A DNA stretch of 64,000 nucleotides from Sulfurovaceae bacterium (GTDB taxonomy: Bacteria; Campylobacterota; Campylobacteria; Campylobacterales; Sulfurovaceae). The translations under genes and the position numbers were made by a program. A model generated the notes under the pieces. It saw nothing but the letters and a program-made list of their open reading frames with translations, searched no databases and was not told where the DNA came from. The DNA lies in NCBI GenBank assembly GCA_028715055.1, contig JAQTLE010000002.1:124001-188000 (forward strand). The letters run 5' to 3'. Of this stretch, positions 17,031 to 51,216 are shown in pieces; the first letter of the stretch is position 1, and each line of letters starts with the position of its first letter.

Positions 17031-17374
17031 AAGGTGCGATAGGTAGTTGCTATCGATTTATCGGTAGAGGAAAGTCCGAGCTACAAGTGAGACAAGACTC
17101 CACCTAACGGGTGGCCAGAGTAATCTGAGGGCAAGTGCAACAGAGAGAAGACTACCGCTAAAGCGGTCAAAGGTGAAAGGGTGGGGTAAGAGCCCACCGG
17201 TACCTGTGGTAACATGGGTAGCCAGGTAAACCCTGTCTGTAGCAAGAAGTATATGGTACAAGTCTCACATTTTAGTCAAGCTCGCTTGACGAGATACTTC
17301 GCTCGAGCCATGTGGTAACATATGGCCTAGATAAATAACTACCCACGACAGAACTCGGCTTATCGTCGCACCTG
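17031..17374 (+). ncRNA. rnpB: RNase P RNA component (M1 RNA, bacterial type A)
   Basis: Catalytic RNA that removes the 5' leader of pre-tRNAs. Conserved blocks are visible in order: gaggaaagtccgagct near the 5' end, gtgcaacagagagaagac, ccaggtaaaccc, and gacagaactcggctta near the 3' end. The 5' strand aaggtgcgat pairs with the 3' strand atcgtcgcacct (helix P1). That 3' strand is also the prophage core att site, so the prophage preserves the RNA sequence while replacing everything downstream, including the native T-rich terminator. Confidence 0.93.
17359..17373 (+). repeat. Prophage attL core (15-bp direct repeat in the rnpB 3' end)
   Basis: The sequence cttatcgtcgcacct is repeated exactly at 53063-53077. 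The left copy completes rnpB. The right copy is followed by a T-run like a displaced terminator and then host genes. Confidence 0.9.
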
Positions 17375-17483
17375 TCATATAATCATAACCTCCCATACAC
17401 TACTATATGCCCTGAAATACGGACTTTGAGCATTTTTCAACTCTTTACATTTTATACAAAATACTATACAATACCAAGCAGAA

Positions 17484-17531
17484 GTGTACCCAGAAGTGTA
17501 CCCATTTGGGTATTTTTGGAAATGGGTACAC
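17484..17531. promoter_or_regulatory. Probable integrase arm-type sites (gtgtaccca repeats), left end
   Basis: gtgtaccca occurs at 17484 and 17496 (12-bp spacing) and inverted at 17523-17531. The same pair with the same 12-bp spacing occurs near attR at 53002. A perfect 10-bp inverted repeat gtacccattt / aaatgggtac spans 17498-17529, just upstream of int. The sites may serve both recombination and int autoregulation. Confidence 0.55.
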
Positions 17532-17545
17532 CCAAAGGGGTACAA

Positions 17546-18589
17546 ATGACACCTACACGGTACGAAGGCGTGTATTATCAAATTAATCGCAACGGCAAAA
17601 AAACCTACATCGCGCGCTATAAAATCAATGGCAAAAGTCACAAAAAAGTGCTAGGTATGGAGCCAGAGATTAACGCACTCACAGCACACCGCCTAAGATA
17701 TGAGATCATCGAGGGGCATAAGGGCGGTGGCGACTATACCATAGATGAGTATTTCGAGAGGTATTGCGCTGCCAGAGAGGCTACTTTGTCGCACAGTTGG
17801 TATTATAATATCCGGAAAAATTATCGCAAACATCTCCAGTCATTCATTGGCAAGAAATATCCACACCAAGTCTCCAGCGATGAGATCCAAAAAATAATGA
17901 ATGATATGCTCGGCACTGGGTATAAGCCCTCCACCGTAAAGCAAATCAAGGACTGTGTGAGTGGACTGTATGCATATCTGATACGCAATGGTGTAGAGAC
18001 AGAAAACATCGGCAAGGTCCTTGAACTTCCCAAATTTGACAATAAGATCTACTTTACCACGACGATTGATGAAGCCAAGAGGCTATATGAGATCATAACT
18101 ACATATCATGACATCAAGTGGCGCACCTATTTTACATTTTTACTCCATGGACGTCGCAAAAGTGAGGTGATGTTGATGCGCTGGGAATACATCAATTGGG
18201 AGTTAATGAGCTATAGAGTGCCGGCAGATAATGTCAAAACGGTCAAAGAGATAAACGCTCCTATGCTGCCGATATTGGCTGAGTGCCTGCGGCTGCTAGG
18301 AGTGAAAGATAGTGGCTGGATATTTGATGGCGGCGCGGATGGGCATATATCGCTGACGGGGATAGATTTTCAATGGAGAAACATCAAGATGTTAGCTAAT
18401 TTGCCAAAGATGAGACTGCATGATCTGCGGCATTTTATAGGCTTTTGGGCGATAAACCAAGGCGCTACATTAGAGCAGATAGGATATGTGCTAGGACATC
18501 AAAGTATCAACACTACTAAGCGATATTCAAATCTAAAGCTAGATACCGCGTCCAAAGTGCTAGGAGACGTGTTTAAATCGCTTTCTTAG
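17546..18589 (+). CDS. int: Tyrosine recombinase (phage integrase)
   Basis: Catalyses site-specific recombination between attP and the rnpB attB. I chose the ATG at 17546 (MTPTRYEGVYY) because RBS aaagggg lies 5 nt upstream and the typical AP2-like arm-binding domain (YYQINRNGKKTYIARY) follows. The ORF-track start would read through the arm repeats. The core-binding SAM-like domain spans roughly residues 60-160. Catalytic residues are visible as Arg in HGRRKSEVMLMRW, HDLRH, LGHQSINTT and the nucleophile in TKRYSNL. The length of 347 aa is normal. Confidence 0.93.
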   Translation: MTPTRYEGVYYQINRNGKKTYIARYKINGKSHKKVLGMEPEINALTAHRLRYEIIEGHKGGGDYTIDEYFERYCAAREATLSHSWYYNIRKNYRKHLQSFIGKKYPHQVSSDEIQKIMNDMLGTGYKPSTVKQIKDCVSGLYAYLIRNGVETENIGKVLELPKFDNKIYFTTTIDEAKRLYEIITTYHDIKWRTYFTFLLHGRRKSEVMLMRWEYINWELMSYRVPADNVKTVKEINAPMLPILAECLRLLGVKDSGWIFDGGADGHISLTGIDFQWRNIKMLANLPKMRLHDLRHFIGFWAINQGATLEQIGYVLGHQSINTTKRYSNLKLDTASKVLGDVFKSLS

Positions 18590-18839
18590 CTGGGACCATA
18601 GTAGAGTCGATATATCTCTCCAGACTCTCTCTATCGTATCTATATTCCTTGGAATATCTATAGTAAGTTATTGCTCTCTCTTGGCGTAAAGCATCAAGTG
18701 TTTTTTTGGGAATGCCGAATTCATCATTGATCTCTTGGGCCGTCATTAGTTTTTGCTTTGCTTGCACCTGGTTTAGTTTGACTGTTTCGCTTATGATAGC
18801 TTTTAATTCATCGAGTTTGATCACTATTATTTCACTCAT
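18573..18839 (-). CDS. Small HTH DNA-binding protein, excisionase candidate
   Basis: 88 residues. The central part (MTAQEINDEFGIPKKTLDALRQ then YRYSKEYRYDRESLERYI) matches the MerR-like winged helix used by phage excisionases. It is the last gene of the leftward early operon and overlaps the 3' end of int convergently by 17 bp. That position and expression from the lytic promoter fit a directionality factor, but function is inferred. Confidence 0.7.
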   Translation of the reverse strand: MSEIIVIKLDELKAIISETVKLNQVQAKQKLMTAQEINDEFGIPKKTLDALRQERAITYYRYSKEYRYDRESLERYIDSTMVPAKKAI

Positions 18840-19357
18840 GATTTATCCTTTTTCATGGCATTAATTATGTCTTTGGTCGCAAATCCCATGCTAGAAGCAA
18901 ATAGTTTTGATGCTTTGGCTGCTTGTTCAAACGATGCGAATGCTTCGCAAGTGTTTTTAGCTGTTTTGCTTAGTTTTTTTAGTTCATAGTCTAAATTCAT
19001 ATTCAAACTATTAAAGTATACAACAAGCGCATAATCGCCGCTTAACCCCAATGATAAATATGTGTTAGCTAGTCTGCATACTTCTTTGAAATCTACATCT
19101 TTTGGTATTTTTGAGTGGTTAAAGCATTTATTTAAATACTTGACTTTTTCATCGATAAACTCTTCATAAAACATAGCGCCCATAGGATAATGTTGCAAAA
19201 TCTCACATTCTTTTCTGGACCGTAAATCTTTTCTAGTTATAGGCAAAACCAAATCTTTTGCATGGAATTCTTTATTCCCCATAACTAGAGTAAAAAGACC
19301 ACGCTTTAAAGATGGTAGGGCTTGTAATAGTTCATTTACTATACTTAATTTTATCAT
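18836..19357 (-). CDS. Hypothetical phage protein, 173 aa
   Basis: Not recognised. Mostly helical, no signal peptide or membrane segment, with a Cys in the C-terminal third (TAKNTCEAF). It overlaps both neighbours by 4 bp in the leftward operon, so it is translated with them. Confidence 0.65.
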   Translation of the reverse strand: MIKLSIVNELLQALPSLKRGLFTLVMGNKEFHAKDLVLPITRKDLRSRKECEILQHYPMGAMFYEEFIDEKVKYLNKCFNHSKIPKDVDFKEVCRLANTYLSLGLSGDYALVVYFNSLNMNLDYELKKLSKTAKNTCEAFASFEQAAKASKLFASSMGFATKDIINAMKKDKS

Positions 19358-19536
19358 CTCATCTCCTCTTTTGTTTCTAAAATTATTATGATTGCCACAA
19401 GGTCTATTAGAGCTATATAGCCTCCGATATCTTTTCCAAAAATAATATCAAAAATATATACAAAAGCACTGAACATTGTTGTTCCTAAAAAAAGCACCAA
19501 TATTGCTGTAAATATTGTCTTAATATATTCTTTCAT
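19354..19536 (-). CDS. Small two-pass membrane protein
   Basis: 60 residues with two hydrophobic segments (about residues 6-28 and 38-54) joined by a short loop (DIIFGKD). Not assigned to a family. It overlaps the downstream gene by 4 bp (ATGA). Confidence 0.6.
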   Translation of the reverse strand: MKEYIKTIFTAILVLFLGTTMFSAFVYIFDIIFGKDIGGYIALIDLVAIIIILETKEEMR

Positions 19537-19545
19537 CTCTACTCC

Positions 19546-19932
19546 TTATTGTTGCACCTCTATTATTTTCCATAAGTTTGTTTTAGCATATCCCTGACCT
19601 ATAAAACTTCCATATGTACCTTGTTGCTTTGCAAGAAGTTGGCTTTCTCTTATTATTGCTATATATTTTATATTTTCATCGTTTATGATAAATATATCCC
19701 CACCTTTACCCTCTTCGCTAAGACTTGCAAAGATTTTATTTCCTTTGCTATCTATCATAGCAGGGAAGTGTATTGCTAGTGTTGATGGGTCTATTTTATA
19801 GTTTAACCCATGTTGCAGAAAGACCACCTCTCTTATTTCGGTTATACATGGTATCCCATCTTGAAGCCAAAAAAAGCCAATAACCCACTCATCACTATCT
19901 ATCTTCTTTGCTCTATAAATTGGTATATTCAT
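19546..19932 (-). CDS. YopX-like phage protein
   Basis: 128 residues. The layout YRAKKIDSDEWVIGFF at the start, then MIDSKGNKIFASLSEEGKGGDIFI, is characteristic of the YopX family of phage early proteins (Tyr-rich start, G-D-x-G-x-x-I-(Y/F) then G-G-D-I). Function in the family is unknown. RBS ggagt lies upstream. Confidence 0.6.
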   Translation of the reverse strand: MNIPIYRAKKIDSDEWVIGFFWLQDGIPCITEIREVVFLQHGLNYKIDPSTLAIHFPAMIDSKGNKIFASLSEEGKGGDIFIINDENIKYIAIIRESQLLAKQQGTYGSFIGQGYAKTNLWKIIEVQQ

Positions 19933-19949
19933 CCCTACTCCTTTAGCCT

Positions 19950-20552
19950 CTAAATAATTTTATTAAATCTATTGACAATAAAACTATTTTTCTCTACCAA
20001 CTCCCAATATCTATCCGTGAACTGCTTGGCAGCTGTTGTATGGTCCGTCTCGTCTAAGCCCAAGAGATCTTCATACGGCGACAAAATATCACGATCAAAT
20101 GTTTCTATGCCCCATTCGCTTAGATCAGCATTCGGATAAAACATTCTAGCCTCCAGGCATAGAGCGACATTATCCGCCATTTTGATGAGCGCATCATCGA
20201 AGCTCACATTAAACCTCTTCTCTATCATCCGGGATAGTTTATGTTCCATATCTTGATAATTTGGCAGCATATGTTTCAGAGGTCTTGTGACATCACCCAT
20301 GAACGCTTCGGTAGCATCGTGCAGCAACCCTGCCAAAGCAAGAGACGGCGGAAGTATCTTTGATACCAGGACGCTATGCTCCGCCACGCTGTAGTGCCTA
20401 TCGCAATGACCATTGAAACGGCATATCTTTGATAAGCTCCTAGCTATATCGTCTATATGGATGTCGCTTACATTCATATCTTCATCATTAAAGTAAAATC
20501 GTCTCATACCGCAACTCATGGTTATAAAGCTGTAGTTATTTGTTTTGCTCAT
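19950..20552 (-). CDS. HD-domain phosphohydrolase (nucleotidase-like)
   Basis: 200 residues. HD superfamily metal ligands are visible: RHYSVAEHSVLV (first His), AGLLHDATEAFMGD (HD pair) and, further on, a conserved Asp in MADNVALCLEAR. The pattern resembles YfbR-type 5'-deoxynucleotidases and related phage enzymes that adjust nucleotide pools. It is encoded 1 nt from the upstream gene in the operon. Confidence 0.8.
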   Translation of the reverse strand: MSKTNNYSFITMSCGMRRFYFNDEDMNVSDIHIDDIARSLSKICRFNGHCDRHYSVAEHSVLVSKILPPSLALAGLLHDATEAFMGDVTRPLKHMLPNYQDMEHKLSRMIEKRFNVSFDDALIKMADNVALCLEARMFYPNADLSEWGIETFDRDILSPYEDLLGLDETDHTTAAKQFTDRYWELVEKNSFIVNRFNKII

Positions 20553-20870
20553 CTATTGATCCATTTCATCTATAAACTGTTTTAAAACGACAATAAGGCT
20601 TCTCACTTGGTCTGTAGTTAAATGCATTCTTGTCGCTAATAGTACTTCTTCCGGAAGCGGATAGTCTATCCACCCACAATGTTCAGTTGTTTTTACCCCA
20701 AGTTTTTCAGCATCAGATGCTAAAATCTTTGGTCTCGGATTGTCAATACCTAGCCAAATTGCTTTTTCGGTTGCCAAACTGCTTATTTGAAGACTACATT
20801 CTCTGTCGTTAAAGTCATGAAAATCCAAAAATTTAAACCCTCGACCTGTATAGTTTTCTTTGAATATCAT
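20553..20870 (-). CDS. Conserved phage protein, unknown function
   Basis: The ATG at 20870 (MIFKENYTGRGFKFLDF) gives 105 residues and has RBS aggag. The longer ORF-track start lacks one. FNDRECSLQISSLATEKAIWLGID and MHLTTDQVRSLIVVLKQFI recall a widespread small phage early-region protein family of unknown role. Its start overlaps the stop of the preceding 43-aa gene (TGATG). Confidence 0.7.
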   Translation of the reverse strand: MIFKENYTGRGFKFLDFHDFNDRECSLQISSLATEKAIWLGIDNPRPKILASDAEKLGVKTTEHCGWIDYPLPEEVLLATRMHLTTDQVRSLIVVLKQFIDEMDQ

Positions 20871-21001
20871 CACTCTTCTCCTGTCTCTACTTGGAACTGC
20901 TCTATATCGCAAGAGCACTCATCATCTTCTTTGACTTGTTTCCCACTCAAGTGGCAAATACTTTCGCATTGTTTATAAAACGCACATTCATAGCATTGCA
21001 T
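20870..21001 (-). CDS. Cys-rich micro-protein, 43 aa (too short for the ORF track)
   Basis: Begins MQCYECAFYKQCESICHLSG and ends in an acidic tail. Four cysteines and a His lie within the first 17 residues (C-x2-C-x5-C-x3-C-H), with two more Cys at SCDC-like positions further on, so a zinc-binding knuckle is likely. RBS aaaagga precedes the ATG. Its stop overlaps the start of the next gene (TGATG) and its start overlaps the upstream HNH gene, so it fits the operon exactly. Confidence 0.65.
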   Translation of the reverse strand: MQCYECAFYKQCESICHLSGKQVKEDDECSCDIEQFQVETGEE

Positions 21002-21581
21002 TGTTGTTCCTTTTTTTATTGACCGCATTAGATACTTTTACAACTTGCAAAGCTGTTTCTTTAAGGCTTTCATCGATATCAGAATATTTTTGATTTAGTC
21101 TTACAAGTTCAACTCTAGAGACAAGCATTAGATTATCTAGCCGTGTATTGAGGGGGTTTTTGTCTTTGAAGATCACACAATGGTCTTTAGGTATTTTTCC
21201 ATACTTGCGTTCCCAAATATACGCATGAAGCCCTTGCCATATATTTGGTTCTGCAATTTTAATGCGCATATATAGATAACCATTTTTGTCTTTTCTTGTT
21301 ACAATACTTCCTACTTTTTTCACATTTGGGGGAGTATCCCCTTTTTTAAAAGTTGTTTTATTTGCTTTCATTAGTCCTTTTGTGCCTTTGTTTGCTGGGA
21401 TACTTCCTTTTTGGAAGCAACCATTATTAGGACAAACTAGACCTAGTTTTCTACATTTTTGTGCCAATGCTCCATGTGGTATATCTTTTTTAAATTTAGC
21501 GTTAAAAAGTTTTGCAAGTTCTTTTCTTGGCGTTGTCTCATGTCTCCTCAAAAAATCTTCATGAATTTTTAAATACTTCAT
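20988..21581 (-). CDS. HNH endonuclease (homing-type)
   Basis: 197 residues. HNH_3-like core: LHAYIWERKYGKIPKDHCVIF followed by KNPLNTRLDNLMLVSR, the usual H-N-N arrangement. The N-terminal half carries an HTH-like segment (PRKELAKLFNAKF) and a Gly/Lys-rich DNA-contacting stretch. Such enzymes are frequent as freestanding homing endonucleases in phage early regions. It starts within the end of the upstream gene (4-bp overlap). Confidence 0.8.
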   Translation of the reverse strand: MKYLKIHEDFLRRHETTPRKELAKLFNAKFKKDIPHGALAQKCRKLGLVCPNNGCFQKGSIPANKGTKGLMKANKTTFKKGDTPPNVKKVGSIVTRKDKNGYLYMRIKIAEPNIWQGLHAYIWERKYGKIPKDHCVIFKDKNPLNTRLDNLMLVSRVELVRLNQKYSDIDESLKETALQVVKVSNAVNKKRNNNAML

Positions 21582-22036
21582 CGAAAACCATCTTTCTTTT
21601 TCTGTATAAACATTTCTGCTTTGAGAGACAAGTCCGCAATACCTATGATTTTATCAGCGACATTACACACTGCATTTGCTTTTTTAAGCTCCTGCTGCAT
21701 ATCAGTCCCATCATCAGGATCAACTATATTTTGTAATTGCTCAAACAGTATTTTATTTAAAGAGCTAAGACCATCTTTTTTATTATCGTCTGCCGTTATG
21801 ATACCGCCTATAGTACCGACGGTTGGAAGTTGATTTTTTTGCTCTACAAAAAGATGCTGTAGTTTTTCGGGCATATCCACTAACTTTACCATATTGGTTA
21901 TGTATGTTTTCCCTTTATATTGGATATAGCCATCCTTGTCTATAATGACTCCCCCCGCAAGCAAGCCTGTATTGGAAGGAATTACCTCAAATTGGTCGTT
22001 TAACATCGCCTTTTTTTTAAAAAGTTCATAGCTCAT
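21578..22036 (-). CDS. Hypothetical phage protein, 152 aa
   Basis: Not recognised. It has a beta-rich first half (GGVIIDKDGYIQYKGKTYITN), then a helical C-terminus (CNVADKIIGIADLSLKAEMFIQ). The C-terminal helix pattern resembles small phage proteins that act with HNH or RecT-like neighbours, but nothing decisive is visible. Confidence 0.6.
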   Translation of the reverse strand: MSYELFKKKAMLNDQFEVIPSNTGLLAGGVIIDKDGYIQYKGKTYITNMVKLVDMPEKLQHLFVEQKNQLPTVGTIGGIITADDNKKDGLSSLNKILFEQLQNIVDPDDGTDMQQELKKANAVCNVADKIIGIADLSLKAEMFIQKKKDGFR

Positions 22037-22071
22037 AACTGGTCCTTTGTATTTTTAATTTTTATCATCTC

Positions 22072-22287
22072 TCACTTCTCCTTACACTTTTTAATCCAGG
22101 ATCTATTCAGTTCAGCCCACTTTGGATTATTTTTGTGGAATATCACTACCCCATCTTCAAGCAATGTTGATTTTCTTTTCACCATTTGCCATATAAAACT
22201 AATTTCATATTTAGACTCTTTTTCGTATTCTTGAAAAAGCTGATTGTCTTTCAGAAATCTTATGAACTCAGATTTGCTTATACTCAT
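22072..22287 (-). CDS. Hypothetical phage protein, 71 aa
   Basis: Basic, helical, with no recognisable motif. RBS ggagtgaga sits directly before its ATG. It belongs to the leftward early operon. Confidence 0.55.
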   Translation of the reverse strand: MSISKSEFIRFLKDNQLFQEYEKESKYEISFIWQMVKRKSTLLEDGVVIFHKNNPKWAELNRSWIKKCKEK

Positions 22288-22300
22288 CTCTCACTCCTTC

Positions 22301-22408
22301 CTAAAATCCCAAAAGATTGACCAAAAACGGCACTGCGACCATCCCTACCCATGCATAAAACATCAGTAACGCGAAAACATACGGTATTAAATATCTTAGT
22401 TTTATCAT
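22301..22408 (-). CDS. Small membrane protein, 35 aa (too short for the ORF track)
   Basis: Reads MIKLRYLIPYVFALLMFYAW and ends LVNLLGF: one hydrophobic helix nearly the length of the protein. RBS ggaggctaggag. Its ATG overlaps the stop of the upstream 42-aa ORF (ATGA). Confidence 0.5.
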   Translation of the reverse strand: MIKLRYLIPYVFALLMFYAWVGMVAVPFLVNLLGF

Positions 22409-22533
22409 CTCCTAGCCTCCATCATCACTATACTATGCTCCGTCACTATCGGAGAGGAATATTCCACTAAGATACTGATTGCCAAAGCTGCCAAAATAAA
22501 AGCCATTGATTTATAATCTGTTTGTGTTTCCAT
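22405..22533 (-). CDS. Small membrane protein, 42 aa (too short for the ORF track)
   Basis: Starts METQTDYKSMAFILAALAIS, with one predicted transmembrane helix (about residues 10-25) and a polar C-terminus. RBS gagaggg lies upstream. It abuts the upstream gene (1 nt) and overlaps the downstream one by 4 bp, so both tiny genes look translated as a coupled pair. Confidence 0.5.
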   Translation of the reverse strand: METQTDYKSMAFILAALAISILVEYSSPIVTEHSIVMMEARR

Positions 22534-22534
22534 A

Positions 22535-22735
22535 TTACCCTCTCTTCATCATCATGTTAGGCTCAAAGACGAAATCGCCTTTAGTAAAGTATTCGTCTTG
22601 CTTTGCTAAGACCAATCCCCAAACTGCACCGCCAAACCATCTATTGAAGTTCGCTACTTTTGCAAGTGCGGTTTTGTTTCGCAATATTCTTTTAGTTAGT
22701 AGATCAATTTTTCTAAATACTGTCGGTTTTTGCAT
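22535..22735 (-). CDS. Hypothetical phage protein, 66 aa
   Basis: Basic N-terminal half, then WFGGAVWGLVLAKQDEYF. No known motif. The start overlaps the stop of a 24-codon ORF (TAATG), indicating coupling. Confidence 0.5.
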   Translation of the reverse strand: MQKPTVFRKIDLLTKRILRNKTALAKVANFNRWFGGAVWGLVLAKQDEYFTKGDFVFEPNMMMKRG

Positions 22736-22809
22736 TATTTATCCTTTCGGTAAAATCTATCTATGGCTCGCTCTATCCAAGCACCTATTGACTCGATACG
22801 GTTTTTCAT
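22735..22809 (-). CDS. 24-codon micro-ORF
   Basis: Encodes MKNRIESIGAWIERAIDRFY and four more residues: an amphipathic basic helix. RBS taggaga lies 6 nt upstream and the stop overlaps the next start (TAATG). It may be a functional micro-protein or a leader for translational coupling. Confidence 0.4.
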   Translation of the reverse strand: MKNRIESIGAWIERAIDRFYRKDK

Positions 22810-22817
22810 AGTATCTC

Positions 22818-23030
22818 CTATAGTCTTTCCACGATGTATTTTGCGACATCGTAATAATTAAACCCTGCGAGCCTTCCAGCCTCTCTATCTCTGACTACTT
22901 CCCACACCTCTTGGTGTGTCTCGGCGGCCACTTTTTGCACGCTCAGAGAGGTTTGTTTTCGGCTGTATTTTGCTTTCAAGTATCTCACGAGCTGCATGAT
23001 CTTGGCTTCTATCTCGTCTCTCTTTAGCAT
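22818..23030 (-). CDS. Hypothetical phage protein, 70 aa
   Basis: The pattern TSLSVQKVAAETHQEVWEVV suggests an HTH, but it is not clear enough to assign. It overlaps the upstream ORF by 7 bp. Confidence 0.5.
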   Translation of the reverse strand: MLKRDEIEAKIMQLVRYLKAKYSRKQTSLSVQKVAAETHQEVWEVVRDREAGRLAGFNYYDVAKYIVERL

Positions 23031-23251
23031 CTGAGGTCTTTCATGTATTTCGTCTCTGGTGGGTAGATGATGAGCTTATATTTGAGCTCGATACATTCCA
23101 CTACGCCACCGCTCTCTAAGTGTCTGAGCCACTTCTTGACGCTTTCGCTTTGCTTTTTGGTAGGATTACCGCCATGCATAGCATCTGCTATCTCTCCGTG
23201 CGTGGCACTGCCTGCCTTATTCAATATCTTCTTGATCCTTGCTTCCATCAC
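23024..23251 (-). CDS. Small winged-helix-like protein, 75 aa
   Basis: ARIKKILNKAGSATHGEIADAM then SVKKWLRHLESGGVVECIEL has the helix-turn-helix plus wing layout of small phage regulators. It overlaps the upstream gene by 4 bp (ATGA). Target unknown. Confidence 0.55.
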   Translation of the reverse strand: MMEARIKKILNKAGSATHGEIADAMHGGNPTKKQSESVKKWLRHLESGGVVECIELKYKLIIYPPETKYMKDLRC

Positions 23252-23496
23252 TCACCTGCCGTTACGGCTTTTGCTTCCAAAAACACCGCGAAATCTTGGA
23301 GCGGAAATCTCACTCGGCTAGATCCACCAGCGGTCTTGATGTATTTTGGCAAGTCCTTGCCTTTTCTCATCCGCGAAGACAGAGCAGCGACTTTGATGCC
23401 TAGCTCGTCTGCCGCCTCTTTTTTACCTAGGGAGTCTTGATCCGGATATTTGGCCCTCAACCCCGCAAGTATTATTTTCGCTTTTTCGTTCATCAT
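23248..23496 (-). CDS. Small HTH protein, 82 aa
   Basis: I prefer the ATG at 23496 (MMNEKAKIILAGLRAKY): RBS aggag lies 5 nt upstream, overlapping the stop of the previous gene. The ORF-track start lies inside that gene. SLGKKEAADELGIKVAALSSRM is a plausible HTH, followed by VRFPLQDFAVFLEAK, which resembles the excisionase/MerR-like wing. Confidence 0.55.
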   Translation of the reverse strand: MMNEKAKIILAGLRAKYPDQDSLGKKEAADELGIKVAALSSRMRKGKDLPKYIKTAGGSSRVRFPLQDFAVFLEAKAVTAGE

Positions 23497-23501
23497 TGCT
23501 C

Positions 23502-23696
23502 CTATAAGTGCGTGCATATCAGCTTTGCGACTTGCTTTGGGGTAAATGTAACCAACATCCCCATTGAGCGGTAAGTAGATATCTCTTCTCTTGTGAGATG
23601 AGTCTCGCATATCACAGCCGATATTGACAGTTTGGAAGTTTGATACTTTTTATTGATGTATCTAGCCGGCCTATTTATCTTGGCTTCATGCTTCAT
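23502..23696 (-). CDS. Hypothetical phage protein, 64 aa
   Basis: Basic N-terminus (KINRPARYINKKYQ), then a helical part with THLTREEISTYRSMGM. It overlaps the upstream gene by 11 bp. Function unknown. Confidence 0.5.
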   Translation of the reverse strand: MKHEAKINRPARYINKKYQTSKLSISAVICETHLTREEISTYRSMGMLVTFTPKQVAKLICTHL

Positions 23697-23961
23697 CGCA
23701 CACTCCTAATATCACCGGGTTAAGATAATGAAAGTCGTCGCACTCTTTTGTCAGTCTCCACTCCTCGCATCTGCTATGATCTGCTACTGCCATATTGTGG
23801 TATTTGCAAGTCAGAAATACATCATCATCTAGTATGCAAGAACGCCCACAAGATGAGCAATTTTTATCTATAGAGAGTTGGATAGTCACTCTTTTTACCG
23901 GCACTTCGTGGATATTTTGCCAGCCTCTCACGCACGCCATCATTCCTTTTGGTTCGCTCAT
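23686..23961 (-). CDS. Cys-rich phage protein, 91 aa
   Basis: Contains NCSSCGRSCILDDD and then LTCKYHNMAVADHSRCEEW, a set of Cys/His spaced like a zinc ribbon. It is coupled to the first gene of the operon by overlapping ATGA. Not assigned to a known family. Confidence 0.55.
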   Translation of the reverse strand: MSEPKGMMACVRGWQNIHEVPVKRVTIQLSIDKNCSSCGRSCILDDDVFLTCKYHNMAVADHSRCEEWRLTKECDDFHYLNPVILGVCDEA

Positions 23962-24077
23962 CTGCCACCTGCCACAAGGTAGTGGTGGGAGTGGATAAAG
24001 CGGGCAAATTCTGCCATCGTGCGTACGCCTTGCACCCTTGCTAGGATCATGGCTAGTTTTCTATTTTGATTGTTCAT
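23958..24077 (-). CDS. First gene of the leftward operon, 39 aa (too short for the ORF track)
   Basis: Encodes MNNQNRKLAMILARVQGVRT and 19 further residues ending in a His-rich stretch (FIHSHHYL). RBS aaaggagag lies 5 nt upstream. It is the promoter-proximal ORF, 100 bp downstream of the leftward promoter, and its stop overlaps the next ATG. Confidence 0.5.
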   Translation of the reverse strand: MNNQNRKLAMILARVQGVRTMAEFARFIHSHHYLVAGGR

Positions 24078-24113
24078 AACCTCTCCTTTGGTTTTGTTGG
24101 TTTTTTTGTAACC

Positions 24114-24147
24114 TTGCAGCAATTTATGGTAATTAGCTATAATTACC
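24114..24147 (+). promoter_or_regulatory. Probable repressor promoter with overlapping palindromic operator
   Basis: TTGCAG (24114-24119) and TATAAT (24138-24143) are spaced by 18 bp and point toward the repressor. The perfect palindrome ggtaatta-gcta-taattacc (24128-24147) covers the -10 box, so the site could serve repressor autoregulation. Confidence 0.5.
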
Positions 24148-24176
24148 TATGAATAGATATAAATTGTTGTAATTGG

Positions 24177-24206
24177 ATTATAGACAAATTGTTTTGTCTT
24201 TGTCAA
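24177..24206 (-). promoter_or_regulatory. Leftward early promoter (PL-like) with operator
   Basis: On the minus strand TTGACA (24206-24201) is spaced 18 bp from TATAAT (24182-24177). The last 12 bp, tttgtctataat, are identical to the -10 end of the rightward promoter at 26866-26895. An inverted repeat gacaaa / tttgtc (24183-24198) lies within. The shared motif is the likely CI operator. Confidence 0.6.
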
Positions 24207-24233
24207 GGCTTTTTGTATAAAAAAAGGAAAAAT

Positions 24234-24890
24234 ATGGAGAATTGGGGTTTAAGATTAAAAGAAATACGCGAAAAAAATGAATTATCACAAAATGACATAG
24301 CAATTCCACTGCAAAAGGATGTAACACAAATAAGCAGATATGAGCGCGGGCAAGGGGCTTCTAAGATGCCAAAATCTTTTAAAGAAGATTTAAAAGAGCT
24401 TTTTACTAATGGCGAATTAAAATATATTGCTGAGGGCGGAGAATTAATTGAAGAAGAGTCCAATATTGTCATGCTCCCATATTATCCGGAAACATATGCC
24501 AGCGCAGGCGGTGGGGCGTTTTCGTATCTGGAAAACAGTGAGCCGATGAGCTTTAGTAGGGATTTTTTAGAGCTGCACCTAGGGCTCAAAACATTTAAAA
24601 ATATATTTATCATCAATGCCACAGGCGATAGTATGGAAGGTACATTTAGTAATGGGGCATTACTATTCGTCAATCCATACGAGAATGAAGACCGCAAGCT
24701 TAGAGACGGCGGCATATATGTGATAGATGTAGATGACACCAGGCTAGTAAAGAGAGTGACTTACAATCCATTGGATCAGTCACACACCCTCATCAGTGAT
24801 AATGCTGTATATGGCAGCATCAAAGTATATAAGTTCAATGAAAGCGCCAAGTTCATCGGCAGGGTAGTAGGTTTTTTTGATAGGGTATAA
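24234..24890 (+). CDS. CI-like phage repressor (HTH_XRE + S24 peptidase)
   Basis: Lysogeny repressor. I chose the ATG at 24234 (MENWGLRLKEIREKNELSQ) because RBS aaaagga precedes it and the XRE HTH starts at once. The ORF-track start adds 15 residues. The N-terminal HTH spans residues 5-60. The C-terminal LexA-like domain shows an Ala-Gly cleavage-type site (YASAGGGA), the catalytic Ser in NATGDSMEGTF and the catalytic Lys in DTRLVKRVTY. It should therefore self-cleave when RecA is activated, linking induction to DNA damage. Confidence 0.9.
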   Translation: MENWGLRLKEIREKNELSQNDIAIPLQKDVTQISRYERGQGASKMPKSFKEDLKELFTNGELKYIAEGGELIEEESNIVMLPYYPETYASAGGGAFSYLENSEPMSFSRDFLELHLGLKTFKNIFIINATGDSMEGTFSNGALLFVNPYENEDRKLRDGGIYVIDVDDTRLVKRVTYNPLDQSHTLISDNAVYGSIKVYKFNESAKFIGRVVGFFDRV

Positions 24891-25013
24891 ATGCCCAAAT
24901 GGCTGAAAGAAAAATTGATAGTTAGCCTGGTATTATGGATTTTTATCATTGTTTTTATGATGTTTAAAAGGATGATTTGGCTTTTTTACATATTTTTTTG
25001 TACATTTTCTTAA
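24891..25013 (+). CDS. Small membrane protein, 40 aa (too short for the ORF track)
   Basis: Starts immediately after the repressor stop (0 nt gap). Reads MPKWLKEKLIVSLVLWIFII and continues with a second hydrophobic stretch (WLFYIFFCTF). Co-expression with the repressor in the lysogen would suit superinfection exclusion, but there is no own RBS, so translation is uncertain. Confidence 0.4.
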   Translation: MPKWLKEKLIVSLVLWIFIIVFMMFKRMIWLFYIFFCTFS

Positions 25014-25065
25014 TTTAGTATATAATTTTTGTTATAATCTTTAAACTAAATAAAAGGGGGTATAA

Positions 25066-25782
25066 ATGGCACTTCTGAAATGTAAAGAATGTGGGTCTAG
25101 CGTAAGTTCCAGTGCAAAAAAATGTCTAAATTGTGGCAAGCCTACTTCTCCGCAAACATCGTGGATGACATGGACGGTTCTTACATTAATCATATTTGGG
25201 GGGCTAGTTTCTGTTACTAATAATCGAGCAAAAAACGATATACAAGCAAATGCCCCATCGACACAGCAAACGGCCGTTCCGACTGTTCCGTTAAGCGCAG
25301 CCCAGAAGCAAGCTAACAAGAAAAATGATGAAGAACGGATGAAAAAAAAGCTTGATGAGATAGAAGACAGATTGTCAGAGAACAACAAATATATGCAAAA
25401 ATACTACGCCAGAGATGACCAGCTGCAAAAAGCGAATGAAGATTATCTATGGGTATTTGCCACAGAAACAGCAACAGATAGCAATCTATCAAAGAGCATT
25501 GTCAAAAAAGCTCTCGCACTCAAACCCAAGATAGAGCAGCAAGCTAGAAAAATGTATGCATCAGTACTGGAGCATAAAATGATGGATGCCAGGCAAGATA
25601 TATCATTCTCCGCCAAAGGCAAAGAAAATAAAACACTATATGTAAAGTGGGTGTTGATGGGGAATGCTACCGCCTATAACTTTCATAAAGAGATAGCAGA
25701 AAAAGCAAGAGGTTATGGCTTTACTAAGGTTGTTTATACTGATGGATATAATGAGACATGGACTTATGATCTTAGATCATAG
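25066..25782 (+). CDS. Zinc-ribbon, membrane-anchored protein (possible lysogenic conversion gene)
   Basis: 238 residues. The N-terminal zinc ribbon is CKECGSSVSSSAKKCLNCG, then one transmembrane helix (about residues 34-51). A coiled coil follows (NKKNDEERMKKKLDEIEDRL), then a C-terminal domain ending in a mixed alpha/beta stretch (HKEIAEKARGYGFTKVVYTD). RBS aaaggggg. It has its own upstream region and lies between repressor and replication genes, where phage cargo genes sit. The C-terminal domain resembles that of the 26351-26821 product. Function unknown. Confidence 0.7.
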   Translation: MALLKCKECGSSVSSSAKKCLNCGKPTSPQTSWMTWTVLTLIIFGGLVSVTNNRAKNDIQANAPSTQQTAVPTVPLSAAQKQANKKNDEERMKKKLDEIEDRLSENNKYMQKYYARDDQLQKANEDYLWVFATETATDSNLSKSIVKKALALKPKIEQQARKMYASVLEHKMMDARQDISFSAKGKENKTLYVKWVLMGNATAYNFHKEIAEKARGYGFTKVVYTDGYNETWTYDLRS

Positions 25783-25809
25783 CTTTTTATGATGTTTAAA
25801 AAAGAGGTT

Positions 25810-25837
25810 GTGTCTAGGGGCTGCAACCCCTAGACAC
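25810..25837 (-). terminator. Rho-independent terminator of the leftward 5S-like/peptide unit
   Basis: A perfect 11-bp stem (gtgtctagggg / cccctagacac) with a 6-nt loop. On the minus strand it is followed by aacctctttttt. The + strand side lacks a T-run, so the polarity is leftward. Confidence 0.75.
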
Positions 25838-25850
25838 AGTAGCCATTTAT

Positions 25851-25931
25851 TTAATGAAATAAAAATTTCATTAAATGACCAACTAAAACTAAAAAATACC
25901 CGAATATAATAACAACTTCAATTATAAGCAT
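25851..25931 (-). CDS. 26-aa hydrophobic peptide (toxin-like micro-ORF)
   Basis: Too short for the ORF track. Encodes MLIIEVVIIFGYFLVLVGHL followed by MKFLFH: a single hydrophobic helix. A near-perfect RBS (aggaggt) lies 5 nt upstream of the ATG, and a strong terminator follows 13 nt after the stop. Size, hydrophobicity and position after a structured RNA recall type I toxin peptides or small phage membrane effectors. No antisense partner has been identified, so the role is open. Confidence 0.5.
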   Translation of the reverse strand: MLIIEVVIIFGYFLVLVGHLMKFLFH

Positions 25932-25952
25932 TTAATACCTCCTATATTTACT

Positions 25953-26073
25953 CTATAGGCAATAACCTACTTTCCCATACTAGACAAGCATAGTATCATC
26001 GGCGATTAGAGGCTTGACTTCTAGGTTCGGGATGGATCTAGGTATTTATCCCTCTATCTATCTTCACCTATAG
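25953..26073 (-). rRNA. rrf: 5S rRNA-like gene inside the prophage (121 nt)
   Basis: Read on the minus strand, the segment has 5S length and the full 5S fold. Helix I is ctatagg / cctatag. Helix II is gatagagg / cctct-a-atc with the conserved bulged A. Helix III is cctag / cctag around a loop with atcccgaac, followed by gaagtcaagc. Helix IV/V is atacta / tagtat with loop-E-like cgccgatgat and gggaaagtagg. Conserved positions match bacterial, especially Campylobacterota-like, 5S RNA. No 16S or 23S is adjacent. It is either a captured 5S gene or a functional mimic. Confidence 0.75.
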
Positions 26074-26075
26074 GC

Positions 26076-26117
26076 AAAAAAAAAGCCCCGGTAGGATTTA
26101 ATCCTACCGGGGCTTTT
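26076..26117 (-). terminator. Very strong leftward terminator directly upstream of the 5S-like gene
   Basis: A 17-bp perfect stem (gccccggtaggat core) with a 3-nt loop. On the minus strand a run of nine Ts follows, ending 2 nt before helix I of the 5S-like RNA. It should stop transcripts arriving from the right. Confidence 0.85.
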
Positions 26118-26241
26118 GAGGTGTTCATGCTAATGTGTTTGCAGACACATATAATAGAACTGTTATTGATCGGGTATGGAGGCTCTTAAGTGGCAACTCC
26201 TCTATATAACTCATTAGGTACATAAAAGAATAGCCTTTAAT
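26081..26241 (-). ncRNA. Candidate small RNA ending at the strong terminator
   Basis: A minus-strand TATAAT (26253-26248) could start a ~160-nt transcript that ends at the 26076-26117 hairpin. The span has no ORF but has hairpins: gagg / cctc around gttgccac, and atgtgt-ctgcaa-acacat. No known family is recognised. It may be a regulatory leader for the 5S-like unit. Confidence 0.35.
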
Positions 26242-26350
26242 ATACAAATTATAGTGCACCAACCTTAAATCAAAATAAGAAAAAGACCTTTTTATAATGA
26301 CTTTTTAGGTATTTCTTTACTATTTTAGTGTGTTTTTAAACTAAAAGAGG

Positions 26351-26821
26351 CTACTTGCAGCTTTCAACCGCTATTGTTTCAATCTCTCCTGTACGAAGAG
26401 CCTTGCCATAGTCGGTTATTTTTACATTTATTTTATTAACTCCCATTTTGTTAGCTATAGAGCATACATACTCGGCATATCCTTGTTTACCACCACCTTC
26501 ATTCCATATTGCCACATAAAGCCAGTCGCCATCTACCCAAGTCGCATTTTGAGCTTCCGGCTCTTTGTTGGATCTAAAACGCTCTAGTAATTTTTGTTTT
26601 TTAGCCTCTATATCTGCAACTGCTGCCGCTTGTTTATCGGCTGTTTGTTTTCTTTTTTCTGCATCTGCGACGGTTTTGAGCTTCATCTCTGCTTTTGTAT
26701 ATGCTTTTACGTCGGTAGGTTTCGCGTCAGTATTTGGGGTATCTCTAGTTATTATGGCTATTGCAATAAGGGTCAAAACCCCGAATGTAACTATATTTGT
26801 CTTCTTTTTATCATTTGCCAC
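26351..26821 (-). CDS. Membrane-anchored coiled-coil protein
   Basis: 156 residues from a GTG start (26821) with RBS aaagggga. One N-terminal transmembrane helix (FGVLTLIAIAII), a long Lys/Ala/Gln-rich coiled coil (about 40-90), then a compact C-terminal domain (WLYVAIWNEGGGKQGYAEYV). That domain parallels the end of the 25066-25782 protein. It is encoded leftward, diverging from the PR-like promoter. Possibly a lysogenic conversion or superinfection-exclusion protein; inferred from place and topology only. Confidence 0.65.
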   Translation of the reverse strand: MANDKKKTNIVTFGVLTLIAIAIITRDTPNTDAKPTDVKAYTKAEMKLKTVADAEKRKQTADKQAAAVADIEAKKQKLLERFRSNKEPEAQNATWVDGDWLYVAIWNEGGGKQGYAEYVCSIANKMGVNKINVKITDYGKALRTGEIETIAVESCK

Positions 26822-26865
26822 ACGAATCCCCTTTTATTATTTTTCTAAACTTTTTATAACAATAC

Positions 26866-26895
26866 TTGACAAAGTGTCTATAATTTGTCTATAAT
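26866..26895 (+). promoter_or_regulatory. Rightward early promoter (PR-like) with tandem operators
   Basis: TTGACA (26866-26871) and TATAAT (26890-26895) with 18-bp spacing. tgtctataat is repeated exactly at 26875 and 26886, and gacaaagtgtc is a small palindrome over the -35. The same motif occurs inverted in the leftward promoter at 24177, so one repressor probably controls both. Confidence 0.65.
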
Positions 26896-27113
26896 GCCAG
26901 AAGCGACACTCATTAGTTCGCTGTAAGTCCTTTATAATTTAACAACTTTTGTGGTGGGTATCTGCTTCCTTCGAACTAAACAGATACCCGGCACGACACG
27001 AAAATGAGGTGCTTCATATTGTACTTGAAGCTAACTAAAAGAATGTTTATGTATGCCTCTCGGTTCTTGTACCCGCTTGGCGGGGGGCAGACATAAAGCC
27101 AAAAGGGTAAAAT
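26896..27113 (+). promoter_or_regulatory. Structured 5' leader of the rightward operon
   Basis: About 218 nt without an ORF between the promoter and the first gene. It contains a 9-bp stem (gggtatctg / cagataccc, 26956-26989) and a small hairpin cccgc-ttg-gcggg near 27070. It may take part in antitermination, or in RNA-level control by an unknown factor. Confidence 0.4.
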
Positions 27114-27608
27114 ATGAATAAAGATAGACGAACATACCTGGCAGTAGCCAAGGCGATCGACGCTTTCGGTGAAAAACACGAGATAAATGGGCGCGAACAT
27201 ATAGCTAGAGCTATTGGACTCCAAGGCCCAAATGCAGCTATACAACTCTCCAACATCCTAAATACAGAAACTTACAACCCCACAAATCCAAAGCGCCTCA
27301 GCATAGATCATCTTCTTGCTATCATGTTCGAGTTAGATGACGATAACAATATGATGATACTAAATGCTATCGCCGAAGAGTTTGGATACAACATCACTAA
27401 AGCCAAAAGCGACAAACCAAACAAAACAAACGTTTCAAAGGTTTTTAGCTCAGTCCTTGAGCTTAATCAGGGGCATGGGGAGCTATCCCGTGTCTTAAAT
27501 GAGAGTATTATAGATGGCGAGATAGACGAAGATGAGAAGATCAGGCTCCAAAAAGAAATATTAGATCTCAAAACCGCGGTTAGAGCTCTAGAGGAGTTGG
27601 TACGATGA
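27114..27608 (+). CDS. Phage regulatory protein, CII/CP76-like
   Basis: 164 residues. The N-terminal half (EINGREHIARAIGLQGPNAA, then LNTETYNPTNPKRLSIDHLL) matches the layout of the phage CII-type regulatory family (CP76): an XRE-like helical fold with a conserved L-N-P-x-x-P-K-x-L core. The C-terminus is a charged helix that could oligomerise. It is the first gene after PR, as expected for a lysis/lysogeny switch activator. Confidence 0.7.
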   Translation: MNKDRRTYLAVAKAIDAFGEKHEINGREHIARAIGLQGPNAAIQLSNILNTETYNPTNPKRLSIDHLLAIMFELDDDNNMMILNAIAEEFGYNITKAKSDKPNKTNVSKVFSSVLELNQGHGELSRVLNESIIDGEIDEDEKIRLQKEILDLKTAVRALEELVR

Positions 27609-27859
27609 GTGATACAAAACTTCCACCTCCAGGATCTCAATCCCGACAGATTTATGAGATACTTAAATCCGGCGGGACAATTACCGCATATCATGCAGCT
27701 ACTGAGCTTGGTATATTATGCCTTGCCCAACGCATCTATGACCTTCAAAACAAATATAACATCACGATATATACTAAGACAGCAGAAAACAAAGCCAAAG
27801 GAAGGCATTGGACCATTTATAGCATGAAACCGTTTGAGGCGCAAAATGGATCTTTATAG
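27605..27859 (+). CDS. Phage helix-turn-helix protein, 84 aa
   Basis: SQSRQIYEILKSGGTITAYHA, then ATELGILCLAQRIYDLQNKYNI, is the small winged HTH found next to phage replication genes. It overlaps the upstream gene by 4 bp (ATGA) and extends 14 bp into the helicase gene. Confidence 0.7.
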   Translation: MSDTKLPPPGSQSRQIYEILKSGGTITAYHAATELGILCLAQRIYDLQNKYNITIYTKTAENKAKGRHWTIYSMKPFEAQNGSL

Positions 27860-29171
27860 TGCCAATATTGAAAGAGCGATATTAAGCGCCATTATTTTTG
27901 ATAACGATAAATTCAACGATGTAGATGGTGTGCTTGATGTAGATAGTTTTTATTTCCAATTGCACAGAACAATATTTGAGATAATGATAGAGCTAGACGC
28001 AGCCAAAAAACCTATCTGCGAAGAGTTTATCATCTCTGGGCTTATGAAAAAAGAGGTTTTTGACGAGCAGGGATTTTTAGAACTCTTATCGTCAAACCCA
28101 GTCACAGACATAGACGCATACGCATCAGAGCTTAATGAACTCTCAAAGCGCAGGCTACTTGTGAATCTAAGCATCAAGTCCAAGCAATTAGCATCAGAGA
28201 GCGATGACGACAGCGATACTATACTAGCAGCAGTTAGTAGTGAGCTAGACAAGATCATGGATGTCGGTGCAGTTAATGGGCTTTTTGGTATGGATACAAT
28301 CATTAAGAAGCTTGAGCAAAAGATGAGTGAAGCCGTAGATCATGGCAATATCGTTGGATACAAGACAGGCATAAATAGTCTTGATACTATGATAGGTGGT
28401 TTTGAGCCTGGAGATTTAGTGATGATTGCTGCACGCCCTAGCATGGGCAAGACCAGCCTCGCTACTGAAATAGTAGAATACAGTCTCAACCATGGTGTTG
28501 GTGTACTTTTTGATAGTTTAGAGATGGATAGCTATAAGATCATGAGACGGCTCATCTCGGCAAGAAGCGACGAGAGCATAACTAACATCAAGCGTGGTCT
28601 TGTGCGTGATTTTGCCAAGTTTAAAGAAGCAAAAGAATTTTATCTAAAAGCTCCTCTGCATCTGCATGATAAATCGTATATCCCTATTGCTCAACTCAGA
28701 GCCAAAGCTATCAAAATATTTCGTAAAAATCCAAATGTAAAATTATGGGTTATAGATCATTTGCGATATATCAAACTCCCTGGGCTAAACATTCCCCAAG
28801 AACTTAGCGCGGCTATGAAAGTGCTAAAAGCTACAGCCAAGGAATATGGCGTGGTAGTGATCGCGTTATCACAGCTCAACAGAGCCAATGAGTCCAGAGT
28901 CAACAAGCGTCCGATGTTAAGCGATCTGCGCGATAGCGGCGCTGTAGAAGAGGATGCGGATGTGGTTATATTTTGCCATAGAGAAAGTTATTATCGACGA
29001 GCAGAAAGCGAAAGAGAGCCTGATGTGGCAGAAGCTGAACTTATAGTAGGTAAGAACAGAGATGGAGCAACTGGGGTGAATAAGTGTTATTTTGATGCTC
29101 CACATGCTAGGTTTCAAAATATATCTTATGGATACAACACCAATGAAACTCACGGGATGCCTACAATATGA
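27846..29171 (+). CDS. DnaB-like replicative helicase
   Basis: Unwinds DNA at the phage origin. The ATG at 27846 (MDLYSANIERAILSAII) starts the conserved DnaB N-terminal domain; the ORF-track start lies 4 codons earlier. The RecA-type C-terminal domain has Walker A (AARPSMGKTSLA), Walker B-like (LWVIDHLRYIK) and the DLRDSGAVEEDADVVIF segment typical of DnaB. 441 residues. It overlaps the next gene by 4 bp. Confidence 0.9.
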   Translation: MDLYSANIERAILSAIIFDNDKFNDVDGVLDVDSFYFQLHRTIFEIMIELDAAKKPICEEFIISGLMKKEVFDEQGFLELLSSNPVTDIDAYASELNELSKRRLLVNLSIKSKQLASESDDDSDTILAAVSSELDKIMDVGAVNGLFGMDTIIKKLEQKMSEAVDHGNIVGYKTGINSLDTMIGGFEPGDLVMIAARPSMGKTSLATEIVEYSLNHGVGVLFDSLEMDSYKIMRRLISARSDESITNIKRGLVRDFAKFKEAKEFYLKAPLHLHDKSYIPIAQLRAKAIKIFRKNPNVKLWVIDHLRYIKLPGLNIPQELSAAMKVLKATAKEYGVVVIALSQLNRANESRVNKRPMLSDLRDSGAVEEDADVVIFCHRESYYRRAESEREPDVAEAELIVGKNRDGATGVNKCYFDAPHARFQNISYGYNTNETHGMPTI

Positions 29172-29959
29172 GAGATAAATACCTTAGCATGCCAACTGAC
29201 TATATTGGTGAATTAAAAGAGAGTGGCAAGAATTTTAAGGCCATGTGCTTCATGGATTATTATTATGATGTGGAATACAAAAGGGTTAAGTCATACGAGG
29301 ATTATCGCAAGGATTGGGGGCTAACTAGTAAAGGGTCTGTTTTTAAATGGATAGCAGAATTCAAGAACGAAATAGAGCGGTATTTTAACTTTTGGGTGAT
29401 GAAAAATAATCAACACTATAGCTCTGTCAAAAAATCGAGTGAACGCAAAGTGAACGGCAAGTGTACGATTGAACACCCACAAACTCCCACCACACCGAGA
29501 GTTTTAGAAAGTAATGGAACGGCAAGTGAACGGCAAGTGAACAAGTCTAATATAATAGTAGTAGAAAAAGGAGAAGATCATAAATTTAGAACAATATTTT
29601 CTCTCTTTGGTTTCTTTGGAATGTCTGGCAAAAGAAGTGAAGCTTTAGATATATATGAGAAGATTGACGATATAGAGTTTGAAAATCTAGTCTATGCAAT
29701 TAGAATGTATCTCAATGATAGCCGTATAACTCATAAGCTTTGGCTCCCGAACTTCCTAAAAGAAAAGATATATGTGAACTATATGAAACAAACTTTTAAA
29801 ATATTTATAAACGGCGAGTGGAAAATAGGCAAATATGATGCTGCAAAAGAAGTGTTTGAGACGCAAGAACAGAACTATAAACTAACCAAACAAAGAATAA
29901 ATGAGCTGCTTGACAGCAAAGAGCTTGAGTTTATTACACAAGAGGTGGCCGTGGCATGA
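29168..29959 (+). CDS. Probable phage replication/initiator protein
   Basis: 263 residues directly after the helicase (ATGA overlap). N-terminal ~85 residues are helical and basic with a winged-helix feel (SYEDYRKDWGLTSKGSVFKW). A low-complexity linker (about 90-130) is encoded by iteron-like DNA, and a helical C-terminal domain follows. Layout (DNA-binding head, linker containing ori repeats, helicase-contacting tail) parallels lambda O-type initiators. I infer this from architecture, not sequence identity. Confidence 0.55.
   Translation: MRDKYLSMPTDYIGELKESGKNFKAMCFMDYYYDVEYKRVKSYEDYRKDWGLTSKGSVFKWIAEFKNEIERYFNFWVMKNNQHYSSVKKSSERKVNGKCTIEHPQTPTTPRVLESNGTASERQVNKSNIIVVEKGEDHKFRTIFSLFGFFGMSGKRSEALDIYEKIDDIEFENLVYAIRMYLNDSRITHKLWLPNFLKEKIYVNYMKQTFKIFINGEWKIGKYDAAKEVFETQEQNYKLTKQRINELLDSKELEFITQEVAVA
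29438..29545. repeat. Iteron-like repeats, candidate phage replication origin
   Basis: gtgaacg(g)caa recurs in two clusters inside the initiator gene: gagtgaacgcaa and agtgaacggcaa at 29438-29460; ggaacggcaa, gtgaacggcaa and gtgaacaag at 29516-29545. AT-rich DNA (tctaatataatagtag) follows. Same-orientation spaced repeats within the linker-coding part resemble the lambda origin layout. Confidence 0.5.
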
Positions 29960-30246
29960 CAGTAATATTGCATGATGGATATTTCATTGGGACTTGGCTG
30001 GCTAGAGAGTTTGGACTTCCTACCAACTATTTTTCTATCATCAATAGCAAAGCACCAAAGACATTGCATAGAGAGATTGATGTTGCTATGTTTGCCGGTT
30101 TGGTGTTTGTAAAGCTGCCAAGTAAGGTGGTTGAATATATCAGGGCAGGGTATATCACAGCTAAGATAGAGCCCGATGATGATCTAAACATGTATGAGTA
30201 TATCCTTGAGATTACGATCAATACAAAGATAGGATTTTGGATATGA
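29956..30246 (+). CDS. Hypothetical phage protein, 96 aa
   Basis: Contains TWLAREFGLPTNYFSIINSK, then a hydrophobic segment. No family recognised. It overlaps neighbours by 4 bp on both sides. Confidence 0.6.
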   Translation: MTVILHDGYFIGTWLAREFGLPTNYFSIINSKAPKTLHREIDVAMFAGLVFVKLPSKVVEYIRAGYITAKIEPDDDLNMYEYILEITINTKIGFWI

Positions 30247-30653
30247 AAAGAATTTGTCCCATACATGGAATACACTCAGAGACTAGGTGTCCGAAGTGCC
30301 ATAAACAAACAGCCAAAACCTACGATAAAACCAAAAGAGTAAATGCAAAATTTTATCATTCCAAGGAATGGAAAGAGGTCAGGGAGATACAGCTTAAAAG
30401 AAATCCTGTATGTTGTGTAGATGGATGTGGCAAGCCTGCCGTGATAGTGGACCATGACGAAGAGATAGAAGACGGCGGATGTAAGCTATGTCTTGATAAT
30501 CTACGATCCATGTGTATATCTTGCCATAATATCAAAACCAAAAAAGCTAAGGCAGCTAGGGAGGGGCGGTCTAAATCTCTACAGAACTCAAGCCCCAACA
30601 CCGACGCCCCTCCTAAACTTTCACAAAATGTATTTTTGAGGGGTACCCTATGA
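30243..30653 (+). CDS. HNH endonuclease next to terminase
   Basis: 136 residues from the ATG at 30243 (ATGA overlap with the previous gene). Zinc-binding Cys pairs (CPIHG, RCPKCHK, CCVDGCGKP) and the HNH core VIVDHDEEIEDGGCK...LDNLRSMCISCHNIK are intact. HNH proteins beside terminase genes are needed for cos cleavage in HK97-like phages, which supports cos-type packaging here. Confidence 0.88.
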   Translation: MKRICPIHGIHSETRCPKCHKQTAKTYDKTKRVNAKFYHSKEWKEVREIQLKRNPVCCVDGCGKPAVIVDHDEEIEDGGCKLCLDNLRSMCISCHNIKTKKAKAAREGRSKSLQNSSPNTDAPPKLSQNVFLRGTL

Positions 30654-32922: not shown

Positions 32923-33003
32923 TATTTTTTGAGCTATGGCGGTCATACCAATGGATGTTGGTGACGTAATCGCTATGATTTGAAAAAAGCAAGGATTTTT
33001 GGT

Positions 33004-36223: not shown

Positions 36224-36235
36224 AAGTAGTCCGCC

Positions 36236-38401: not shown

Positions 38402-38402
38402 C

Positions 38403-38867: not shown

Positions 38868-38931
38868 TTTAGCTGGGTTTTGTCTCCTTCCCCGGCACTA
38901 AAAAAAAGGACCAAATAAAAAAGGAGAGAAC

Positions 38932-39581: not shown

Positions 39582-39584
39582 CAA

Positions 39585-45318: not shown

Positions 45319-45326
45319 GAGGTCAA

Positions 45327-47462: not shown

Positions 47463-47489
47463 GTGAACGATAGTGAACGGAGATAAAAC

Positions 47490-50111: not shown

Positions 50112-50136
50112 AAGTAAATGAGGGGGGGGATATATA

Positions 50137-51204: not shown

Positions 51205-51216
51205 GGAGACTAGCCT

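Follow-up and report, generated by a model that had tools for sequence, protein, structure and literature searches.

A prophage in the 3' end of the RNase P RNA gene of a Sulfurovaceae bacterium, and a proposed clade of integrases at this site

Introduction

The 3' ends of tRNA and tmRNA genes are the standard sites for elements that carry a tyrosine integrase, and the attachment sites of phage lambda provide the familiar arrangement of a core accompanied by arm sites. Among the approximately 1.75 million islands of the TIGER/Islander database, 33.8% occupy tRNA or tmRNA genes, 43.4% coding sequences and 22.8% intergenic sites (PMC12424338). The locus described here lies within a 64 kb stretch of the genome of a Sulfurovaceae bacterium, referred to below as the window. 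It resembles the elements of tRNA and tmRNA genes in several respects: the core closes a gene for a structured RNA at its 3' end, within the helix that joins both ends of that RNA, an integrase is adjacent to the att site, arm repeats are present in each arm, and the target gene is restored by the element itself. It differs in the target, which is the gene for RNase P RNA, rnpB, and for which the TIGER/Islander scheme has no class (PMC12424338). The lambda type of att site is matched by the short core and by paired direct arm repeats approximately 11–12 bp apart in both arms; in contrast to lambda, the core is the end of an RNA gene, and the putative arm words differ from member to member (GTGTACCC, GTGTACCA, GTGTCACC, CCGTGTTAAA).

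A search of the open-licence literature found rnpB used as a marker, a promoter, an annotated gene or a reference, and not as an attachment site. As far as this literature goes, the mechanism appears to be that of tRNA and tmRNA 3'-end integration, while the target gene, with an integrase clade of its own, is new, and the family of rnpB-targeting integrases is undescribed. This would make rnpB the third kind of structured, essential RNA gene among the landing sites of tyrosine integrases, backed not by a single case but by an entire clade of integrases, together with several phages and small islands. Surveys that sort islands into tRNA/tmRNA, coding and intergenic sites would probably class such elements as intergenic. 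The site also lends itself to experiments on how an element can share the terminal helix of an essential ribozyme, and it is a candidate landing site for genetic tools, of which this group has few.

The attachment core and helix P1

The window contains a full-length rnpB of bacterial class A at 17031–17378 on the forward strand (RF00010, 266.5 bits, model positions 1–367), which is the sole copy in the source assembly, a 23-contig draft on which both junctions rest. The last 15 bases of the gene are CTTATCGTCGCACCT, with the RF00010 match extending a further 5 bases into phage DNA, and a second exact copy of this sequence is found on the same strand, 35,704 bp away from core to core. The features of the two junctions are as follows.

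17359..17373, + strand: attL core CTTATCGTCGCACCT, exact direct repeat, pairing in P1 with AAGGUGCGA
53063..53077, + strand: attR core CTTATCGTCGCACCT, exact direct repeat
53078..53086, + strand: original 3' flank of rnpB, TTTTTATAC, from the sequence and from comparison with the G005 and G007 junctions
53137..54921, + strand: molybdopterin oxidoreductase-family gene (PF00384), directly 3' of rnpB in the prophage-free relatives (L045, L049)

The cmscan alignment places the core in helix P1 as its 3' strand, opposite AAGGUGCGA at the 5' end of rnpB (from 17031). Since only 0.05 core matches with up to two mismatches are expected per shuffle, the two exact copies are not due to chance. A third copy, at 19545, differs at two positions; it falls within the last part of a coding gene, has no arm repeats nearby and is probably fortuitous. 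A sequence-only reading of this DNA had proposed a prophage in the 3' end of rnpB, with a 15-bp core formed by the 3' strand of P1 and a left copy that leaves the gene complete. The alignment and the two exact repeats confirm the position of the core, and coverage of the RF00010 model from 1 to 367 at attL confirms that rnpB is whole; the proposal of a prophage is supported by the core repeats, the integrase, the phage genes and the empty site in relatives. As in other integrations at structured RNA genes, the core forms the 3' terminus of the target gene and leaves it complete; that gene is neither a tRNA nor a tmRNA, ARAGORN finding in the whole window only a tRNA-Met at 62436.

The empty site in relatives of the same genus

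When the host sequences on either side of the prophage are rejoined, the rebuilt attB aligns without an insert across the junction, with 611/750 identical positions in G005 (contig L045) and 668/780 in G007 (contig L049). This comparison with prophage-free relatives was run as set beforehand, and both genomes show the predicted junction, in which rnpB is followed by TTTTTTCTC, containing the T-run, and then by the orthologue of the gene at 53137. The corresponding order in the window, attR followed by TTTTTATAC and the 53137 gene, is likewise as the sequence-only reading had claimed. Three further members of the genus (G010, G009 and G008) also have rnpB preceding the orthologue of this gene. 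In G005 and G007, the biotin carboxylase gene upstream of rnpB is 92–98% identical in protein to that of the window. The locus thus has both direct repeats at the ends of the insert and an empty site in related genomes. In another genome, G006, a run of N starts inside the rnpB core (L043, from approximately 6332), as if the assembly had broken at an att repeat, and an element may be missing from the assembly at this point.

Gene content of the prophage and its arms

The DNA between the cores contains both structural and replication modules of a phage. Its main features, together with those of the att arms, are listed here.

17374..53077, + strand: prophage, 35.7 kb (PHROGs and Pfam matches)
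17484..17531: putative left-arm arm-type sites of the integrase, GTGTACCCA, at 17484 and 17496 (+) and at 17523–17531 (−)
17546..18589, + strand: tyrosine integrase (PF00589, E=4.6e-18; phrog_1, E=3.7e-43; clade tree)
18573..18839, − strand: small HTH_17 protein, candidate excisionase (PF12728, E=5.5e-06)
53002..53022, + strand: putative right-arm arm-type sites of the integrase, GTGTACCCA, at 53002 and 53014

The regulatory and replication genes include an S24 repressor (24189), a CII-like regulator (27114) and a DnaB-like helicase (27834). They are followed by packaging and head genes, with small (30650) and large (31297) terminase subunits, portal (33200), head protease (34392) and major head protein (35045), and by the tail side, with a neck or tail completion protein (37590), tape measure (39585), further tail genes, a diversity-generating retroelement (DGR) and a D12 methyltransferase (52148). 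Judged by this gene content, the prophage is complete-looking and siphovirus-like; its best terminase match in the viral collections searched is approximately 36% identical.

A tyrosine recombinase of the phage integrase family (PF00589, phrog_1) adjoins attL. It is the first prophage gene after the core and is co-directional with rnpB; the reading frame is open from 17426, and the likely start is the ATG at 17546, where homology begins, 172 nt past the core. No close relative was found among named phages, the best being approximately 24% identical. The HTH_17 protein beside the integrase is a candidate for its excisionase, and homologues of it also adjoin the integrases in L051–L053 (tblastn). 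The 64 kb window contains five matches to the word GTGTACCCA, against an expectation of 0.05, and all of them lie within the two att arms, each of which has two direct copies 12 bp apart; AAGTGTACCCATT is common to the right and left arms. This layout recurs elsewhere with related words, with GGTGTACCAAAAGTGTACCA at both ends of the G170 prophage, AGGTGTACTCAAAAGT in both arms of the G003 element and CCGTGTTAAA in G416. By analogy with lambda, we infer that the GTGTACCCA repeats may be the arm-binding sites of this integrase.

A clade of integrases at rnpB

Related integrases were gathered from the genus, the family and the order and from two public collections. The resulting tree unites the window integrase and ten others as a clade of 11 (support 98/95). 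Ten of the 11 are located at rnpB, and the contig of the remaining one (G119), only 3 kb long, does not allow its position to be judged. The members at rnpB come from two families of Campylobacterales. Outside the clade, the next branch (G326) lies on a contig end, and none of 15 loci with more distant integrases was near rnpB within flanks of approximately 1.5 kb where the contig allowed. This contrast, 10/11 against 0/15, leads us to propose an rnpB-specific integrase clade on the basis of genomic position. As in the window, the integrase is co-directional and just downstream of rnpB in G170, G102, G416 and G491. The layout is not uniform: G154, G148, G146, G142 and G096 have islands in which the integrase lies roughly 0.8–2 kb away and is directed toward rnpB.

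G170 contains a second complete rnpB prophage of 39.9 kb, in which the end of rnpB and attR are both CTTATGGCGTACCT, 39,901 bp apart. The layout of its arm sites is like that of the window, and the two prophages share tape measure, tail, helicase and repressor homologues. In G416 and G491, which belong to another family and are single contigs, there are two exact copies of CTTATTGGTTTACCT on the same strand, 35,072 and 15,188 bp apart respectively, one of which is the end of rnpB with the integrase beginning just downstream; helix P1 of these hosts has AGGTAAACC as its 5' strand and GGTTTACCT as the core. From host to host, the repeat remains inside the 3' strand of P1 (CTTATCGTCGCACCT, CTTATGGCGTACCT, CTTATTGGTTTACCT, TTATAGTCGCACCT) and the bases 3' of it differ. 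That the core differs between hosts exactly as P1 does is the strongest argument for the P1 strand as the target.

How the prophage came to lie in rnpB

These data are best explained by the site-specific integration of a temperate siphovirus-like phage through a 15-bp attP core identical to the 3' end of rnpB, the 3' strand of P1, a reading to which we give a probability of about 0.95. Recombination would join the attP core with the identical strand of the gene, the phage copy of the core would restore P1 and with it a full-length RNase P RNA, and the sequence once downstream of rnpB would be displaced by 35.7 kb; the neighbouring tyrosine integrase is the presumed catalyst. The target could instead be the intergenic stretch 3' of rnpB, or its T-run, with the overlap with P1 being incidental, since the core stops at the border of the gene and the junction also takes in the downstream flank. 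We consider this very improbable because the core remains in the 3' strand of P1 and varies with it across hosts, while the bases that follow differ.

Slightly less probable still is that phage DNA was joined to rnpB by a chimera of assembly or binning. The assembly is a draft, and the N run in G006 that begins inside the core would fit such an error; however, similar architectures with matching att pairs occur in unrelated assemblies, including the single contigs of G416 and G491, and the host flanks on both sides agree with the gene order of relatives.

Consequences for rnpB and its transcription

Integration would exchange the base opposite 17031, so that the terminal A–U pair of P1 would become A–G, and leaves the next eight pairs unchanged. 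The terminal pair is not conserved, being missing in G008, G009 and G001, all of which are without an element. As read from the predicted pairing, integration would cost rnpB at most one terminal A–U pair, and the RNA presumably stays functional in the lysogen.

The sequence-only reading had also held that an essential RNA loses its terminator. The T-run does now lie behind attR, but its role as the terminator of rnpB could not be established: T6 directly after P1 is present only in the closest relatives within the genus, no canonical hairpin precedes it, and the run is missing in most relatives without an element. Within the 130 bases that follow rnpB, a hairpin resembling a terminator was seen in only two of the relatives' rnpB genes examined, and none was found at attL and the left arm of the window or at the rebuilt attB.

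An addition to the integration explanation, rather than an alternative to it, is that transcription, no longer stopped by the rnpB terminator, continues across the left arm, so that int in the lysogen is partly driven by the rnpB promoter. The orientation of int, its likely start 172 nt past the core, the left arm without a terminator-like hairpin and the like layout in G170, G102, G416 and G491 all speak for such read-through. Nevertheless, we regard it as doubtful, as the T-run is no conserved terminator, a canonical one is likewise missing in most relatives free of the prophage, islands with the opposite orientation of int exist, and a promoter-like site at 17444–17472, a match no better than chance, could drive int itself. 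A broader conjecture, equally tentative, is that a Campylobacterales integrase lineage is dedicated to rnpB, with an attP core that evolves with the P1 of its host, so that the pairing of the phage-supplied strand would limit host range, and with read-through from the rnpB promoter feeding int in the lysogen where the two are co-directional.

Smaller elements at the site

Several elements at rnpB are shorter than the prophages. G148 and G154 carry elements of approximately 13.7 and 13.2 kb, with one or two mismatches in the core, G142 has a 3.7 kb element whose integrase is interrupted by a transposase gene, and G096 has a 2.5 kb island. In G003 an element of 2.2 kb (L040, 3391–5650) lies in the 3' end of rnpB with a core and arms matching those of the phage lineage; no integrase gene was found inside it and no integrase match in the genome. 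The integrase-less G003 element and the 2.5–3.7 kb islands of G096 and G142 resemble phage satellites that share the att site of a helper, but may be deletion remnants. The cargo of the G003 element includes a TIGR04255-family gene and a gene weakly similar to the candidate defence protein PDC-M32A.

Viral contigs were also scanned for rnpB 3' ends. Eight have a P4-like integrase near rnpB; where the flank is long enough, rnpB is followed by a tRNA-Met, in or close to which several contigs end, and this tRNA gene is therefore the likely target. Two other candidates (L085 and L131) fit the pattern but are not rnpB. On viral contig L074, a different tyrosine integrase (6152–7756) ends 34 bp from the 3' end of rnpB in converging orientation; no second core was found within the contig, which is possibly an independent rnpB-targeting element. 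Within the window itself, a second tyrosine integrase, 29% identical, extends from 63613 to beyond 64000, approximately 1.1 kb from the tRNA-Met gene (62436–62512, − strand), and probably belongs to another mobile element running past the end of the window.

Other features of the prophage

The prophage includes a 5S rRNA-like gene at 25954–26071 on the reverse strand (RF00001, 71.1 bits); the draft assembly as a whole has no other 5S match. With 89/109 positions identical to the 5S of three members of the genus, the gene is a diverged copy and not a typical host gene. No 5S match was found in the scanned part of the G170 prophage, and a word from the phage 5S was absent from the viral contigs searched. 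The DGR has a 110-bp variable repeat (47334–47443) at the end of a 711-aa gene of the tail region (45327–47462), a template repeat 587 bp further on (47921–48030) and a reverse transcriptase (47882–49147), with 14 of the 17 differences between variable and template repeats falling at an A of the template. The same 711-aa gene contains three tandem 63-bp repeats at 45747–45935, two of which are identical.
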